Positions 1 through 35,224 of a stretch of DNA of 41,533 bases are shown in pieces (positions within the stretch are counted from its first letter, which is position 1; every line of letters starts with the position of its first letter). Origin of the DNA: a virus. The stretch spans positions 1 through 41,533 of the IMG/VR virus record IMGVR_UViG_3300043444_000386; one strand, written 5' to 3'. The notes beneath the pieces were generated by a model. The model did not search any database. It was not told where the DNA came from and was given only the letters and a program-made list of their open reading frames with translations. Made by a program: the position numbers and the translations under genes.

Positions 1-433
1 TTGTAACGGTTCACACGCTGCGGTTTCCTAACACGCTTACGGCCACCCATGTCGGCAATCCGTCCTTTCCGTTTACGATGGCGTCGTATTCGGCGGGCAG
101 CACGACCGACCTCAGCGTTTACTGCGGATCCTTTGCCGGCTTCATTGAGGGACAGAAGGTTTTGCACGGACCGCGCTATTCCTACGTCAACACCCTCACG
201 ACGGTTGGTGCCACCAACTATCAGGCGTTGTTCACCATCAGGAATACCCGTTACTTCGGCGGGCGGACCAACCAGTCGGTTATCAATCTGCTTTCCGTGT
301 CCGGTGCGCTGAAGCATACGCAACCTTGCATCTTCTACCTCATCAAGAACGGGGAGCTTGCCGGCACGCCCAGCTTTGCGGCGTTTACGTCGGGCAGTTG
401 CTCGACGTGGGACACGGCTGCAACCACGGTGAC
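1..433. repeat. Left copy of near-identical terminal repeat
   Basis: Bases 1-433 match 41101-41533 without gaps, with 16 substitutions that I counted by eye (about 96% identity). The first 127 bases are identical and the differences lie after that. The reading frame continues exactly across the junction 41100/1, so the unit length is 41,100 bp. A true terminal repeat of one molecule should be exact, so the mismatches suggest variation within a population, or a diverged tandem copy of the fibre gene. Confidence 0.9.
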
Positions 434-11894: not shown

Positions 11895-12086
11895 TCAGAT
11901 AAGGCCGGCGGCTTTCAGATTGGCCGCGCTTTCGGCAAACACCTTCAGCCGCTCAAGCTGTTTGAACAGATGAACGGAGTCCGGTTGCTCTTTGTTCAAG
12001 TGGTTGTTGATGTCGCCGGCAAGGTATTCGCCGATTGATTTGATGTCTTCCTTCATGGCTTTGCTAATGGTGTTCGCCGTATTCAC
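11895..12086 (-). CDS. Small helical hypothetical protein
   Basis: This 63-residue helical protein starts with GTG in a GTGA overlap with the dnaB stop (12083-12086), so it is probably translationally coupled to the helicase. It is charged, has no cysteine and no motif I recognise. A helper role in replication is possible from position alone. Confidence 0.65.
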   Translation of the reverse strand: MNTANTISKAMKEDIKSIGEYLAGDINNHLNKEQPDSVHLFKQLERLKVFAESAANLKAAGLI

Positions 12087-14671
12087 AGTTTCAGTCCCTT
12101 TCGTTCCTCTTCAAAAGCGGTTATGGGCCGATTGAACCACATGGTCAGCTTATCACGGCCTTCACCACGACCCTTGGCTTGAAGGATGTTCGTGTAAACT
12201 CGGCGCAAATCTCCATCGTTCAGGTCTTGGGTGCTGCCGTCCGGCAATCCGGTAGGGGCATGGATAAATATCACTCTGTCCGCATCTTGTTCGACATTCC
12301 CAGAGTTGTGAACTATGACCCCGTTGGCTACGAAGTTGTGATGCTCGGGCACAACCCGATCAAACACCGGACCGCCGGCCGCGCGCTCAATCTTACGCGG
12401 CTTGTCCCAGAATACGTCATCTCCGACAAGGCTTTGGATGTGCTCATTCATCATGCCTCTGTCCATGAGGTTCGCCCAAACCCGCATCAAGTCATCGTAG
12501 GAGATGCGCTTGCCTTGAAAGCGATAGCCGATTTGGGCATGGGTGAGTCCGTAGCGTTTCCTGATTGAGTCAACGAGCCGACCAACGCCTACGCTGAAGC
12601 GAGATCCGGCGATGTTGCTGGTCCGGGTTGAATCAACCTGACGCAGCAAGTCGCCCTTGCGGCCAATAAGCGGGATTTTGGTGGCAAACCGCGCCACTTC
12701 TTCGGCTACGCGTATAGAAACCTTGAAGCAGGGATGCTTTGCCCTTTTGCCCATGTATCCGGGCTCAATACTGGCATAGATGCCAAGGCGAAGGAGTGCC
12801 CAAACAACCTGCCATGCCATGTGCTCCGATGTGGTGGAAAAGGAGAGGCACGGGCGGGGCTTGAGCATGACGCACCCGTCCGTCTCCCAAAGGCCGGCGA
12901 TAAGCTCGGCAAGACTTTGGTTGTCGGCCGTCTCGCAGAACCACTGCGGGATGCGTTTTTCCCATGAACGGCGTCCCCACATGTCATTTTTCCGCATCCA
13001 GTTCGTCGCCGGATTCCCAAGGGATGTGCGAACAGGGTGCTTGGTAATGTCAAACTGCTGGACCTTTTTGCACTTGTGGCGGTGGGGTTTGGGGCAGAAT
13101 CCGAATAGCGCGTTTGTCTGGTTGCAGAACTCCTCGGCAACAACCTGGCATGAGGTGATGAACGAGGGCGACTGGCTGCCTACGCCAGACCCGTTGCCAA
13201 GCATCCACCCCATCCAGCGGCTTACGTGGAAGTATTCGCAGTTGCGGGGGGCGGGGATACGGCGGGCGCAGGCGATGGCGCTTTCCTTTGTGACGGCTTC
13301 GGCAAGCGTCCAGCCGTTGTCCGTCTTGATGGCGTGTCTCGGCGTGCAGGTGATGGTGCGACCACTCTGGAGCGTTATCCGAATCATTTCCGGCGCAGCC
13401 TCTCGGGGTGCATTTCGGCTTTCAGAGGCAACAAGCCGTCCGTCCATAGACAATCCGACGGTGGCGATGGGCGCCTCGGTGTTGCGCCAGATGCCTTGGC
13501 TGTTGAAGACGTAGGTGTCCTTTACGGAAAGGCACTCGCGGATGTCAGAAAGGCGAGGCTCGCGGTCTTCCTTCTCAACCCCTCGGCTAACCTGAACCAA
13601 GAGAAGCACGGGGATCTTCAAGTCAACGGCAATGTCCTTCAGTGCCATACTGAACCGGCCTATGGCTATGTCCCGCGTTTCCCCCCGCTCCTGCTGCGGA
13701 TCGTAGCGTTGCAGGTAGTCCACGATGATGGCCCGAATGGGCATAAGCTGCCGGCAAGCCTGAACGCGGGCCATAAGCTGTGAAAGCGTCCGGTCCTTGT
13801 CAAAAGCTAGGATGTTCGGGTTGCGTGACACGGAAGCCAAGGCGTCGTCAAACTCGTCCATGTCCTTGTCATGGAGCTTACGGTTGCGGTATTCCTTCCA
13901 TGACTTGCCGGAAAGTGCTTGGGCAAACAACACTGGAAGCCCTTCTACGGGCATTTCCCTTGAAAATAAGAGGATTTTGCCGCCCTTGGACCATTCCCAT
14001 GCCACTTGGCGGGCAACGCTGCTCTTTCCGCATCCAGGACGGGCTCCAAGCACCAGCAGTTCGCCGGCCTTGGCCCGCCCGAAACGGTTGTCCCAGTCTT
14101 GCCACCCCCACGAGATACCTTGATCTTCCTCGGTTAGCGGCTCGGAGCCCCGGATTCGGACGCATTGAGCCTGCGCCCCGACCGCCGCTTCGTTCAGCGT
14201 CAGGGCCTTTTGGGCGGCGTGCTGGATGGACAGGATGCGGTGGGTTTCGGAAACGAAGTCCTCGACGCTGCCGGAGTAGGCCAACGCCTTCTCGGCGGTG
14301 CGGGTGGCCGCCCCGTGAAGCTCACGGAGCACGTAAAGCTCACGCAGCCGGGCAATCCAGTAGTCGAGGTTCTTGCTGATGTCCTGACCGCTGGAGACGG
14401 CGGTAAGGGCCTCGTATCCGCCAATCTCTTCCAGTTTGCCGGCCTTTTTAAGCTCCTCGGCTAGCACGGCAAGCTCAACGGGGTGTCCTTGCTTGTGCAG
14501 CCAGCAAATTGACTTCCAGACCTTCTGGCAAACCGCGTCGTAGAAGACTTCCGGGGTAATTTTACCCTCGAAGCATTTGCAGAGGGCAGGAGCGCCGTCC
14601 AAGAGGACGTGCGTTATGAGGGCGCGTTCGCCTTCTTCGGAATGAGGCAGGGTTGTCTTAGTTTTGGTCAT
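12083..14671 (-). CDS. dnaB: Replicative DNA helicase DnaB interrupted by an intein
   Basis: The 862-residue precursor contains a 452-residue DnaB helicase split by a 410-residue intein. The N-terminal primase-interaction domain occupies about residues 1-150. The RecA-like motor has Walker A GARPGCGKSS (209-218), Walker B IIVDYL (315-320) and the helicase loop LSDIRE (374-379). The C-extein resumes with SGNVEQDAD. It unwinds DNA at the phage fork. No phage DNA polymerase or primase is visible, so it presumably recruits host enzymes. The start overlaps the upstream gene by four bases (ATGA), and the stop overlaps the next gene (GTGA). Confidence 0.96.
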   Translation of the reverse strand: MTKTKTTLPHSEEGERALITHVLLDGAPALCKCFEGKITPEVFYDAVCQKVWKSICWLHKQGHPVELAVLAEELKKAGKLEEIGGYEALTAVSSGQDISKNLDYWIARLRELYVLRELHGAATRTAEKALAYSGSVEDFVSETHRILSIQHAAQKALTLNEAAVGAQAQCVRIRGSEPLTEEDQGISWGWQDWDNRFGRAKAGELLVLGARPGCGKSSVARQVAWEWSKGGKILLFSREMPVEGLPVLFAQALSGKSWKEYRNRKLHDKDMDEFDDALASVSRNPNILAFDKDRTLSQLMARVQACRQLMPIRAIIVDYLQRYDPQQERGETRDIAIGRFSMALKDIAVDLKIPVLLLVQVSRGVEKEDREPRLSDIRECLSVKDTYVFNSQGIWRNTEAPIATVGLSMDGRLVASESRNAPREAAPEMIRITLQSGRTITCTPRHAIKTDNGWTLAEAVTKESAIACARRIPAPRNCEYFHVSRWMGWMLGNGSGVGSQSPSFITSCQVVAEEFCNQTNALFGFCPKPHRHKCKKVQQFDITKHPVRTSLGNPATNWMRKNDMWGRRSWEKRIPQWFCETADNQSLAELIAGLWETDGCVMLKPRPCLSFSTTSEHMAWQVVWALLRLGIYASIEPGYMGKRAKHPCFKVSIRVAEEVARFATKIPLIGRKGDLLRQVDSTRTSNIAGSRFSVGVGRLVDSIRKRYGLTHAQIGYRFQGKRISYDDLMRVWANLMDRGMMNEHIQSLVGDDVFWDKPRKIERAAGGPVFDRVVPEHHNFVANGVIVHNSGNVEQDADRVIFIHAPTGLPDGSTQDLNDGDLRRVYTNILQAKGRGEGRDKLTMWFNRPITAFEEERKGLKL
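12305..13534 (-). other. Intein in DnaB, with LAGLIDADG-type endonuclease domain
   Basis: The intein starts at C380 (first splicing nucleophile) and ends with H788-N789, followed by S790 as first C-extein residue. Block B has T443-x2-H446. Block F/G has HHNFVANGVIVHN. Between them lie two LAGLIDADG-like motifs: MGWMLGNGSG (487-496) and ELIAGLWETDG (589-599). The second keeps the catalytic Asp (D598), but the first has Asn (N493) where Asp is normal. Splicing looks intact, while cleavage may be lost or reduced. It interrupts the conserved DnaB stretch between RE and SG, near a known DnaB intein site. Confidence 0.93.
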
Positions 14672-27340: not shown

Positions 27341-27621
27341 AAAACGAAGTAGGTAAGTGGTATAAATACGAAGAGCTTGGCGACAAGGGCGATTTGTATG
27401 TGACACGGCACGCCGGGCTTATTTGTTTTGGCCTTTATTTGGGACGCGATCCCGGTGGTCGTGTTTGGTGGGGCGCAACGCCATACAGCCGCGATGCTGG
27501 GCTCCTTGTAGATGGGAGCCTTTGGTCGTCGGAACATGAAATGCTTTTTTTGAAGATCTGCGACAACTTGCCAATGAGCGAGGCTGATGCCCTTGGTGCC
27601 ATCAAAAAAGCACTTGTTTAA
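27337..27621 (+). CDS. Small hypothetical protein
   Basis: This 94-residue protein starts MKNEVGKWYKYEELGDKGDL in an ATGA overlap and ends in a TAATG overlap with the large terminase gene. It is beta-rich with many Trp/Tyr/Gly and a C-terminal helix. Unlike its upstream neighbours it uses ordinary codons, so it may be a separate insertion. Function unknown. Confidence 0.6.
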   Translation: MKNEVGKWYKYEELGDKGDLYVTRHAGLICFGLYLGRDPGGRVWWGATPYSRDAGLLVDGSLWSSEHEMLFLKICDNLPMSEADALGAIKKALV

Positions 27622-30215
27622 TGCTTACTTGGAAGAGACATGAGTTGTTGAAGCCTCCGACGGACGAGGAGGTGGCGTTGATGGAGCCGGAGGAGTTGCT
27701 GGCGGTCCACAAGGCTTACCACGAGTCGATAGAGAATGCGGAGCGTGACCCGTATCGGTTCGGGTTTGTCCTGGATCACTGGAAGCAGGGTGACTTCTGG
27801 TGGGCCAAGTATCGGACGCTGCTTCTTTTTGGGGCTAACCGCTGTCTTGCCGGCGAACAGGTTATCTACGACCCCGTAAAAGGAAAAGCCCTCCGAGTTG
27901 ACTCAATCACGGAGGGCTTTCATGTAACGGCCTACGATTTGGTTAACGATAGGTTTGTTACGGCAAAGGCTTTGCGGCCTTTTCAAAAACCAGCTCAGGA
28001 GTTGTTTGGTGTTTCTCTATCCAATGGAGAAACTCTATTTTGCTCGGCGGCGCATCTAGTCCTAACTCCTTCTGGATGGAAAGAAGTAGGTCAGCTAGCT
28101 GTTGGAGACTGCATTTGCGGGCAGCCTCAAAGCTCTTCAGAATCGCAGAAGCCCGTATGCGTGCCAAGCCAAGTGGCGTCCACTTCGGACATTGACCAAG
28201 AAGCGTTTCAGCCAAGTGCCTTGAGTTGGAGTCAAAAAGCTCAAGGTTCTCAATCCGATTGTCAGTCTTATCGTTGTTCTTGTGATGAACAACTTCGGTC
28301 GGCAGAAGATTCCTCCCGAGATGCTTCTCCATCACAAGGCGGTGCTCTTGGATGTATTTCTCCTTCCGGTAATACTTTCCATTTGCTTTCAGCCGGCGCG
28401 CCTCGTTCAGGCGAAGGCATTCGTGATGGTCTGGCGCCCAAACGTGAACGTAGCCATTTTTATCAAGGATTCGCCCGCCTTTCCATTGTGGGTGACCTTC
28501 TGCGGCGCGCGGCCCTCGGCGCTGGCACTTTATTCCGTGCTTTTTGCAAACCTTGGTCACGAGTTTACGGGTTATTCGCGGGTCCAGATTGGCAGAAAGA
28601 TGGCTGGCAATGCGATCTTGCGTCCATCCATCTGCAATCCACTTACGAATGTCCTCAACTGGATACTGAATCGAACTTGTTCTCATGCGGGGCTAATAAT
28701 ACCACACGAGTAAGCATTGTCAACATCTATTCGCTCCGCAACGATACCGTGTGGGATTTTGAGGTTCCCTATTTCCACAACTACGTATCCGCTGGAATCA
28801 TCTCACACAACTCGGGAAAGACGAGCTACGGCGCTCGGGCCGTGGTTAAAGCTGCCATTGAGAATGCCGGGAGCCTGATTTACTGCTTCAGCCAGACCGA
28901 GGAAACGTCTTTGCTTGTTCAGCAGCCAGCCATTTACCTAGCCCTTCCGGCTGAATTAAAGGTGAAACGGACGGAAAGCGTCACTCACATCAGCTACAGC
29001 AGCCAAAACGGCTTTACGGGGAATGCTTTGGTGCTTCCGAACGGCTCCCGAATCGTCTTCAAGTTCTACACGCAGTTCCAGCAGAACCAATCCATCCTTG
29101 AGGGCATGGAATTGGGCTGTCGTGACCCTCAGTTCATCAATATCGGGGCTTGGCTGGACGAGTATTTGCTGGGGATGGAGTTGGTTGACCGGCTTTATTT
29201 GCGTCTGGCTACCCGTAACGCCAAATTGCTCATCACCTTTACTCCGAAGGACGGCATTACGGAGACGGTTAAGTATTTCCTGAAGGGTTCAGAAACGGTG
29301 GAAAAGCGGGATGCGGAGTTGATGCGGGTTTTGCATGGCCGCAAGGACTGCGAAGTGCCCTACATCCAGAAGAACGAGGGCCGCAACACGGCTATCATCT
29401 ACTTTCACAGCAAGGACAACCCTTGGAGCGGCTATCAAACCATCGTAGAGACTTGTAAGAGCAAGGGAGATCCCGATTACACGCTGACGGCGGCTTACGG
29501 AGTGCCTACGGCCATGTTTGACACGCCGTTCCCCTGCTTTTCGACGGAAGTGAACGTGGTTAAGCCGTCGGACATGCCGACGAAAGGCATAACCCGTTAC
29601 ATGGTGCTTGATCCGGCGGGGCGGAAGAACTGGTTCATGGTTTGGATTGCGGTGGACGAGGACGGGACGTTCTGGGTTTACCGGGAATGGCCTGGCGTGG
29701 ATGTCGGGGAGTGGGCTGTGGAGAAAAACGGGCAAATGGTTGCCGGTTTGGGCTCCAAGGGGAAGGGATATGGCATCGGGGAGTATGTTTCCTTGATTCG
29801 GTCGCTGGAAAAGCTGCCCGGAGAGGTAATTCACGAGCGCATCATCGACCCACGGCTCGGGCAGACCAAGTATTTGAAGGAAAGCGGAGCCTCCTCCATC
29901 ATCGAAGACCTTGCCGATCAGGATATGGTTTTCATCCCTGCTCCGGCGCTGGACATCGAGGACGGTTTGCAGGCTTTGCAGACTAAGATGGCGTATGACC
30001 GCCGGAAGCGGCTCGATTCCATGAACCATCCGCACTTCTACATCAGCAACGAGTGCGAGAACACGATTGCGGCCTTGCAGCTCTACACGGGAGAGGGCGG
30101 ATATGAGGAGGCTTGGAAGGACCCCATCGACTGTCTGCGTTACGCTGCCATCACCGGCATTTACCACATCGGCGACAAGAAACCCCGTGTCATCACGGGC
30201 CAACGAGGATACTGA
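27621..30215 (+). CDS. terL: Terminase large subunit (packaging ATPase-nuclease) with intein
   Basis: The 864-residue precursor contains a 541-residue large terminase and a 323-residue intein. The intein sits inside Walker A: N-extein ends LLLFGANR (residue 74), C-extein starts SGKTSYGARA (398), together GANRSGKT. A likely Walker B is in INIGAWLDEYL. The nuclease domain begins at about residue 660 with MVLDPAGRKNWFMVW and has further Asp residues such as IIDPR and DCLRYAA. The protein pumps DNA into the procapsid through the portal. ATP hydrolysis, and so packaging, should need intein splicing first. Confidence 0.95.
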   Translation: MLTWKRHELLKPPTDEEVALMEPEELLAVHKAYHESIENAERDPYRFGFVLDHWKQGDFWWAKYRTLLLFGANRCLAGEQVIYDPVKGKALRVDSITEGFHVTAYDLVNDRFVTAKALRPFQKPAQELFGVSLSNGETLFCSAAHLVLTPSGWKEVGQLAVGDCICGQPQSSSESQKPVCVPSQVASTSDIDQEAFQPSALSWSQKAQGSQSDCQSYRCSCDEQLRSAEDSSRDASPSQGGALGCISPSGNTFHLLSAGAPRSGEGIRDGLAPKRERSHFYQGFARLSIVGDLLRRAALGAGTLFRAFCKPWSRVYGLFAGPDWQKDGWQCDLASIHLQSTYECPQLDTESNLFSCGANNTTRVSIVNIYSLRNDTVWDFEVPYFHNYVSAGIISHNSGKTSYGARAVVKAAIENAGSLIYCFSQTEETSLLVQQPAIYLALPAELKVKRTESVTHISYSSQNGFTGNALVLPNGSRIVFKFYTQFQQNQSILEGMELGCRDPQFINIGAWLDEYLLGMELVDRLYLRLATRNAKLLITFTPKDGITETVKYFLKGSETVEKRDAELMRVLHGRKDCEVPYIQKNEGRNTAIIYFHSKDNPWSGYQTIVETCKSKGDPDYTLTAAYGVPTAMFDTPFPCFSTEVNVVKPSDMPTKGITRYMVLDPAGRKNWFMVWIAVDEDGTFWVYREWPGVDVGEWAVEKNGQMVAGLGSKGKGYGIGEYVSLIRSLEKLPGEVIHERIIDPRLGQTKYLKESGASSIIEDLADQDMVFIPAPALDIEDGLQALQTKMAYDRRKRLDSMNHPHFYISNECENTIAALQLYTGEGGYEEAWKDPIDCLRYAAITGIYHIGDKKPRVITGQRGY
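27958..28686 (-). CDS. HNH homing endonuclease encoded antisense within the terminase intein
   Basis: The 242-residue product has an N-terminal helix-turn-helix (about 8-50, VEDIRKWIADGWTQDRIASH), a linker with GYVHVWAPDHHE, then YIQEHRLVMEKHLGR (111-125) and the HNH core with H134-H135 in VVHHKNN, N143 in DNRIENLEL and H157 in SNSRH. Residues up to about 190 match the usual size of such enzymes; the last 50 overlap, antisense, the splicing-domain coding and may be run-on. It should cut intein-less terminase genes and spread the intein. A promoter lies directly upstream. Its codon third base faces position 2 of the intein codons, so each frame constrains the other. Confidence 0.9.
   Translation of the reverse strand: MRTSSIQYPVEDIRKWIADGWTQDRIASHLSANLDPRITRKLVTKVCKKHGIKCQRRGPRAAEGHPQWKGGRILDKNGYVHVWAPDHHECLRLNEARRLKANGKYYRKEKYIQEHRLVMEKHLGRNLLPTEVVHHKNNDKTDNRIENLELFDSNSRHLAETLLGQCPKWTPLGLARIRASAILKSFEAARKCSLQQLADLLLSIQKELGLDAPPSKIEFLHWIEKHQTTPELVFEKAAKPLP
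28696..28723 (-). promoter_or_regulatory. Near-consensus promoter of the antisense HNH gene
   Basis: On the minus strand TTGACA (28718-28723, full consensus) is followed after 16 bases by TATTAT (28696-28701, 5/6), with TGG just before it as an extended -10. Only nine bases separate TATTAT from the ATG at 28686, so transcription would begin within about three bases of the start codon, giving a leaderless message. There is no ribosome binding site. The promoter lies within intein-coding DNA. Confidence 0.7.
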
Positions 30216-34243: not shown

Positions 34244-35224
34244 ATGGCCTTCAGTAACAGTTACGATACCACTTCGCCCGGCTCCGCCGCGCTGAACCGC
34301 GAGCAGCTTCTCGATTCCGTCGAAATGCTGGCTCCTGAGCAGACTCCGTTCTACTCCACCGCCTCCAAGATCAAGGCGACCTCCACCTTTGTTGAGTGGG
34401 GCCTTGACAAGCTCTCCAGCCCGGTCACCACGGCGGTTGCCGAGGGTTTGGACGTGCAGGACTTCACGGATGCGTTTGAGAACGTAGCCCGTGTCGGCAA
34501 CTACACCCATAAGCTCCGCCGGAGCTACATGGTTTCCGACATCCAGGAAGCTGTCACGTCGGTTGGTCCGCAGGACATTGCCCGTGCGCAGATGAAGGCG
34601 ACGATGGAGCTGAAACGCGACATCGAAGCCACCCTGCTTGGCACCCAGGACCGCGCGGCCCCCGATGGCGCCGGCACCGCGTCTACGCTGCGTGGCTTTG
34701 GCGACTGGATTGACAGCGCCGGCCCGTCCGACGTTCCTGCGGCCTATCGCACCCCGTCCGGCAGCATCCACGCGTCCGGCACGTTCAGCGAGACGGTTCT
34801 CAACAACCTCATCACGTCGATTTATCGCACGTCCGGCGAGGCTCAGAACCTCACCCTGCTTGCCGATACGGCGCTTCGTCGGGTTATCTCCGACTTCGCC
34901 CGTGCGGACACGACCTCGGGTGCTTATCGCACCTTCAATGCCTCCAGCTCGGACGCTACGATCACCCTCAAGGTGTCGCAGTATGATTCGGACCACGGCA
35001 TTGTGTCCATCATCAACATGAACCCGGATTGCGCGCCGGACACCACCAACAAGGATACTGGCTACATCATCAATCCGAGCAAATACTCGGTTGCGGAGCT
35101 GATTCCGATTGGTGTTACGGCCGGCATGAATGAAGGTGGCGGTCGGCGCGGCTGGGTTGACTGGGTTGGCACGCTCCGCGTCTCCCATCCGGCCGCCCAC
35201 GGCAAGATCACGGTCCTCAGCTAA
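34244..35224 (+). CDS. Major capsid protein, DUF5309/SU10-type
   Basis: The 326-residue protein has the N-terminal pattern LNREQLLDSVEMLAPEQTPF and the conserved middle of SU10-type (DUF5309) phage capsid proteins, an HK97-like fold: MVSDIQEAVTSVG, then KATMELKRDIEATLLG, and a beta-rich C-terminus. It forms the head shell. Codons are strongly C-ended and uniform, as expected for a highly expressed gene. A strong terminator follows after one further gene. Confidence 0.85.
   Translation: MAFSNSYDTTSPGSAALNREQLLDSVEMLAPEQTPFYSTASKIKATSTFVEWGLDKLSSPVTTAVAEGLDVQDFTDAFENVARVGNYTHKLRRSYMVSDIQEAVTSVGPQDIARAQMKATMELKRDIEATLLGTQDRAAPDGAGTASTLRGFGDWIDSAGPSDVPAAYRTPSGSIHASGTFSETVLNNLITSIYRTSGEAQNLTLLADTALRRVISDFARADTTSGAYRTFNASSSDATITLKVSQYDSDHGIVSIINMNPDCAPDTTNKDTGYIINPSKYSVAELIPIGVTAGMNEGGGRRGWVDWVGTLRVSHPAAHGKITVLS

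Follow-up and report, generated by a model that had tools for sequence, protein, structure and literature searches.

The large terminase gene of this virus appears to contain a mobile intein that carries the gene of its homing endonuclease in antisense, within its own linker, a reading to which we assign a probability of about 0.85; splicing, cleavage, the target site and antisense transcription remain undemonstrated. The DNA analysed (the window) is the entire 41.5 kb virus record IMGVR_UViG_3300043444_000386, and the coordinates of its relevant features are collected in Table 1. Judged by homology, its SU10-type capsid protein is consistent with a tailed phage. The intein splits the Walker A motif of the terminase between GANR and SGKT, and the two coding frames, sense and antisense, are both intact.

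Anatomy of the terminase intein and of the gene opposite it

The terminase precursor matches the Pfam family Intein_splicing (PF14890, precursor residues 92-397, E=1.3e-9) as well as the NCBIfam model of the intein C-terminus (TIGR01443). The splicing residues C1, H71 (block B), H322 and N323 are invariant across 19 inteins, and the +1 residue is S or T in the loci where it was read. The structural model agrees: AlphaFold2 confidence is high at both Hint ends (pLDDT ~94-98 for residues 1-90 and ~94-97 from residue ~290 on) and falls to 30-46 over most of the length of the linker, and a Foldseek search with this model returned the Ssp DnaB and Mtu RecA mini-inteins (E 6e-7), in agreement with the sequence profile. 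A Pfam search found no domain in the sense linker, which is predicted to be disordered. On the model, the sense frame thus comprises the complete splicing halves of a mini-intein, joined by a long structureless linker; splicing itself is inferred. The criterion for a mini-intein (a Hint domain without an in-frame endonuclease) is fulfilled, while that for a full homing intein (an endonuclease between the Hint halves, in the same polypeptide) is not.

Table 1. Features of the window, with positions, strand and supporting observations.
Feature	Position	Strand	Remarks
DnaB-like helicase with classical intein	12083-14671	-	in-frame LAGLIDADG_3 PF14528 2.9e-10; PF14890 1e-11
Terminase large-subunit precursor ORF	27621-30215	+	864 aa; frame open across intein
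Terminase N-extein, residues 1-74, ends GANR of Walker A	27621..27842	+	
Intein, 323 codons, C1 to N323, +1 residue S (precursor residues 75-397)	27843..28811	+	
N-terminal Hint half, intein residues 1-97	27843..28133	+	AlphaFold2 high confidence; mini-intein matches
Disordered linker (predicted), intein residues ~98-279	28134..28679	+	sense frame open, structureless; pLDDT mostly 30-46
C-terminal Hint half, including H322-N323	28680..28811	+	confident from ~residue 285
Terminase C-extein, starts SGKT of Walker A	28812..30215	+	weak Terminase_6N match; uninterrupted in relatives
HTH+HNH endonuclease gene, 242 aa, ATG start, intact	27958..28686	-	HNH_3, phrog_10730 matches
HNH residues H134-H135 (E131-V-V-H-H motif)	28282..28287	-	conservation in 30 sequences
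Predicted sigma-70-like HNH promoter: TTGACA, 16 nt, TATTAT, 9 nt, ATG	28696..28723	-	11/12 consensus matches
SU10-type major capsid protein	34244-35224	+	PF17236 1e-43

The opposite strand of the linker encodes a conserved HTH plus HNH protein that is predicted to be ordered and evolves under purifying selection, its cleavage activity being inferred. The protein matches HNH_3 (PF13392, E=1.8e-11) and the HNH endonuclease family phrog_10730 (E=3.5e-21), and in an alignment of 30 sequences residues H135, N143, N147, N154 and H157 are invariant, with H134 conserved in at least 90%. Its structural model has a mean pLDDT of 91.9 and a helical, HTH-like N-terminal part. The best HNH structural neighbour is I-HmuI (1u3e), a weak match (Foldseek prob 0.89, E 0.58), and a sequence-profile search of the protein against structures retrieved no HNH chain.

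The initial annotation had placed the intein boundaries at C75, H396-N397 and S398, had named the HNH residues and had described the antisense gene as complete inside the intein, all of which holds: both ORFs are intact and carry the PF14890, HNH_3 and phrog_10730 matches. Its figure of about 190 overlapping intein codons is too small, because the HNH tail also underlies the region of splicing block B. The HNH gene overlaps intein codons ~40-281, i.e. ~242 codons, with HNH codon position 1 opposite intein position 1, position 2 opposite 3, and position 3 opposite 2.

In most representatives the HNH gene is predicted to have start signals of its own, either a TTGACA/-10 promoter or a Shine-Dalgarno site; this prediction rests on consensus matching, and expression is inferred. 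The promoter scan found one site against 1.2 in shuffled sequences, so that it is the position and conservation of the promoter, not its existence, that count as evidence. A Shine-Dalgarno-like site is present in 19 and absent in 29 of the 48 representatives scored. Among the 29 without it, 17 have an exact TTGACA 34-39 nt (usually 37) before the ATG, and 12 lack one at that distance; such a spacing would place the transcription start at or adjoining the start codon. The TTGACA box lies 23-36 codons from the end of the intein and in two codon phases, and because these positions and phases vary it is conserved as a DNA signal and not for the protein sequence. Of the 32 TTGACA occurrences on the antisense strand of these inteins, 23 lie no more than 100 nt upstream of the HNH gene. 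Individually, the promoter reaches P<0.05 in only 19 of 50 representatives, which are related to one another, and several representatives of the Shine-Dalgarno type also have promoter-like hexamers further upstream.

Coding constraint in the two overlapping frames

To quantify how far the intein frame is kept open, we held the HNH protein fixed, permuted its synonymous codons and counted stops in the intein frame. The window has 0 stops in this frame, against a mean of 8.2 expected; the same count gives 0 observed against 144 expected for 19 representatives, and 0 against 297 for 51 representatives. Controls, defined as HNH relatives that fail the nested criterion, behave differently: in 83 such genes, which do not lie within an open frame, 229 stops are observed where 256 are expected. 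Thus HNH relatives outside inteins carry a normal number of antisense stops, unlike the nested copies. One of the first six presumed free-standing controls, from Pseudoalteromonas phage PHS3, had zero stops, and proved to be nested.

Selection was estimated from simple counts over 27 pairs at 90-99.8% identity, with the caveats that the boundary at about codon 95 is approximate and that one clade is over-represented among the pairs. Over the linker, dN/dS of the HNH gene is 0.16, with substitutions distributed 413:102:63 over HNH codon positions 3:1:2. In the intein frame of the same DNA, amino acids change freely (ratio 2.7), and changes of the stop-creating type are nearly absent (2, with 23.5 expected). 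Where the HNH tail lies over intein codons <95, the pattern is reversed: the intein is constrained (dN/dS 0.36) and the HNH protein relaxed (0.89). The intein outside the HNH overlap has a dN/dS of 0.16. From these substitution counts, the constraint is seen to switch between the two frames along the DNA.

Distribution, mobility and alternative readings

A search of IMG/VR with the HNH protein alone gave 36 loci, in 33 of which (L002-L034) the HNH gene lies antisense within a terminase intein, in the same phase and with zero stops in both frames (for L019 the match covers only part of the intein). The intein played no part in selecting these loci, so their open sense frame counts as an independent result. 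Two candidates, L036 and L037, were rejected as nested relatives, having only a short HNH motif in common and not being nested. After alignment-based searches and a six-frame HMM scan, the same nesting was found in at least 119 distinct viral or phage loci, counted by their distinct HNH cores, each with an opposing sense ORF >300 aa, the host being a terminase Walker A where the junctions are readable. This number is a lower bound, since the alignment-based search took in 80 of 518 confirmed candidates. In 119/119 distinct loci compared, no stop interrupts the sense frame opposite the HNH gene. None of the loci fetched has an HNH gene recognisable as broken or degenerate; L035 and L205 are incomplete, apparently cut by contig ends. 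The abundance of unnested inteins at this site cannot be read from the intein search, because ranking by similarity to the window's intein favours nested copies.

The insertion point in the nested loci is mostly between GGNR and SGKT, and in 7 loci (L195-L199, L202, L206) it lies three codons further on, between GK and T. The host terminases belong to different families, Terminase_6-like in phage Taid and Terminase_3 in PHS3. Both of these are cultured phages. The same arrangement, or a near-identical precursor, occurs in Pectobacterium phages Taid, Pappous, Ymer, Abuela, Koroua, Amona and Sabo and in Dickeya phage Setonix; in the two records inspected (Taid and Ymer) the precursor is annotated as a hypothetical protein and the antisense HNH gene is unannotated. 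In PHS3 (KX912252.1; L121:41-2167, minus strand) the full terminase ORF has 708 aa and a GTG start, and it was deposited as a truncated CDS because the antisense HNH gene was annotated instead; 6 more loci of the PHS3 type are present in IMG/VR.

Searches of other collections gave fewer relatives. Against the phage collection, blastn of the window found no DNA relatives and tblastn of the intein protein no match, the HNH search there being the one that led to Taid and PHS3. Against genome contigs, a single HNH protein found no matches, and the HNH alignment found mostly free-standing HNH proteins, which served as controls, and one nested copy (L213). The latter lies on a contig of a bacterial MAG (JAJDCY010000026.1, Phycisphaeraceae) and is probably phage or prophage sequence. 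We also observed that in L110 (IMG/VR 3300005613_002283, positions 3-242, minus strand) an intein interrupts the terminase at this site too, but that the antisense ORF, truncated where the contig stops, is a different HTH-like one. We found no other relative of this ORF; antisense nesting may extend beyond the HNH family described here.

These results bear on what the initial annotation had considered capable of overturning its reading, namely degraded HNH frames in homologous terminase inteins, a lack of purifying selection on the HNH residues, or a frameshift error in the sense frame. The HNH frame is intact in homologues from the 119 or more distinct loci, selection on it over the linker is purifying, and a frameshift error was looked for and not found, both relatives and cultured phages keeping the sense frame open. 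The statement that no antisense nested example had been described agrees with the open-access literature, in which we met no intein with an endonuclease gene in antisense (most subscription journals and preprints were outside the scope of the search); the arrangement itself is far from isolated. The proposal that an HNH gene entered a mini-intein in reverse is an inference with which the data are compatible.

Several observations suggest mobility. The Walker A motif is uninterrupted in 68 of 80 terminase relatives, while 2 have inteins and 10 could not be scored. Intein-less junctions were read in L038 and in Escherichia phage KW1E_UTAR, which represents an intein-less allele of the Pectobacterium phage terminase. 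In pairwise distances, HNH proteins that are 59-67% identical reside in terminases that are only 19-25% identical, and this excess of HNH identity points to horizontal spread. Between the window and the intein-less L038, DNA identity is ~70% up to 60 nt from the insertion and ~86% over the C-extein. The dip near the insertion may reflect co-conversion, with which it is compatible, but it is only suggestive: a second dip occurs at +300 in the same gene.

Could the HNH protein serve the phage instead? It might be a domesticated function, acting in packaging or repressing the terminase by antisense transcription, that is carried in the intein and for which homing is no longer the main role. The HNH gene is invariably in a terminase gene among the loci fetched, an antisense promoter within a late gene could affect that gene, and in PMC11855218 terminase-adjacent HNH proteins are cited as linked to packaging. 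We nevertheless consider this unlikely, since the patchy presence of the element, with intein-less alleles in close relatives, gives it a selfish look, and its transfer among very different terminases and its two adjacent insertion sites likewise suggest a selfish rather than an essential element.

It is more doubtful still that the sense insert is not spliced at all, being merely tolerated in the protein with its frame kept open for read-through, so that the HNH gene would be the sole active element. Splicing here is unproven, and there is a precedent in the ShiLan insertion, which is proposed to behave as an unspliced insert and which contains an HNH gene in an alternate frame on the same strand, without a detected intein or intron (PMC11855218). 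ShiLan resembles the window in hiding an HNH gene in an insertion that is open in the host frame and in its patchy distribution. It differs in that its insert is thought to be retained in the protein and its HNH gene is on the same strand, whereas the window has an intein and an antisense HNH gene. The catalytic splicing residues of the present inteins are all invariant, purifying selection acts on the splicing halves (dN/dS 0.16 where the HNH gene does not overlap), which have a predicted Hint fold, and an unspliced insert in the Walker A motif of an essential ATPase should, we infer, be lethal. That the antisense ORF is a meaningless by-product of codon usage, as other long antisense ORFs in the window arise from composition, or a mis-assembly, is already refuted by HNH homology with an invariant motif, the HNH dN/dS of 0.16, and the recurrence in at least 119 distinct loci, cultured phages included, with 0 stops against 297 expected.

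Proposed mechanism and comparison with known systems

We favor a mobile intein with an antisense endonuclease, which would operate as follows. The terminase precursor would be made late, with the plus-strand genes, and would then splice itself. The HNH protein would be made independently, probably early, by the host sigma-70 polymerase, and would cleave or nick the Walker A codons in the intein-less gene of a co-infecting phage. Repair of this break would copy the whole block, and for this reason the splicing and homing functions would move together. The antisense layout would uncouple expression of the nuclease from the late terminase gene, and its sole cost would be a meaningless linker, which splicing removes.

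The known arrangement of mobile inteins is an in-frame endonuclease, as in the P-loop TerL inteins of mycobacteriophages (PMC5050341). These, PI-MtuI and the DnaB intein of the present phage likewise have a Hint domain, interrupt the active site of a P-loop ATPase, are patchily distributed and contain an endonuclease within the intein DNA, with homing presumed. They differ in that their endonuclease belongs to the intein polypeptide, on the same strand, whereas the endonuclease of the window is a protein of its own, encoded on the opposite strand, and the linker is structureless. None of the three ORFs opposite the DnaB intein has a Pfam match.

Fractured genes, reportedly described by Dassa et al. 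in 2009, combine split inteins with a free-standing endonuclease. As in the window, the endonuclease is not fused to the intein yet is associated with its DNA; there the host gene and intein are in two pieces, whereas here the frames of both continue unbroken through the region of the endonuclease gene. Free-standing phage HNH endonucleases (HNH_3, phrog_10730; I-HmuI-like) share the HNH motif and an HTH-like DNA-binding part. Antisense genes for His-Cys homing endonucleases are known from nuclear group I introns, namely I-DsqI (rDNA L2066) and D. iridis Dir.S956-2 (PMC9548176), and there too the endonuclease is antisense to a self-splicing element and separately expressed (in the window, by prediction). 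Those elements are RNAs in eukaryotic rDNA, with the gene in a peripheral RNA segment and no second protein frame; in the window, by contrast, two proteins overlap on opposite strands.

The element has an anatomy and distribution like those of homing inteins, yet lacks an in-frame endonuclease, and we class it as a new mobile-intein architecture. We think it quite probable that it defines an undescribed class, widespread in environmental phages, in which splicing and homing are encoded on opposite strands, selection switches frame, a built-in promoter allows independent and probably earlier expression of the endonuclease, and one HNH family occupies the R/S and K/T junctions of very different terminases. 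For annotation, the arrangement is a trap even in cultured phages, whose records give a truncated terminase (PHS3) or overlook the endonuclease (Pectobacterium phages). Splicing, cleavage and homing are open to direct testing in the cultured phages and their intein-less relatives, and the 119 or more loci form a large natural collection of long genes that overlap in antisense and in which constraint can be measured in both frames. Inteins may, in this way, separate homing from the expression of their host protein.
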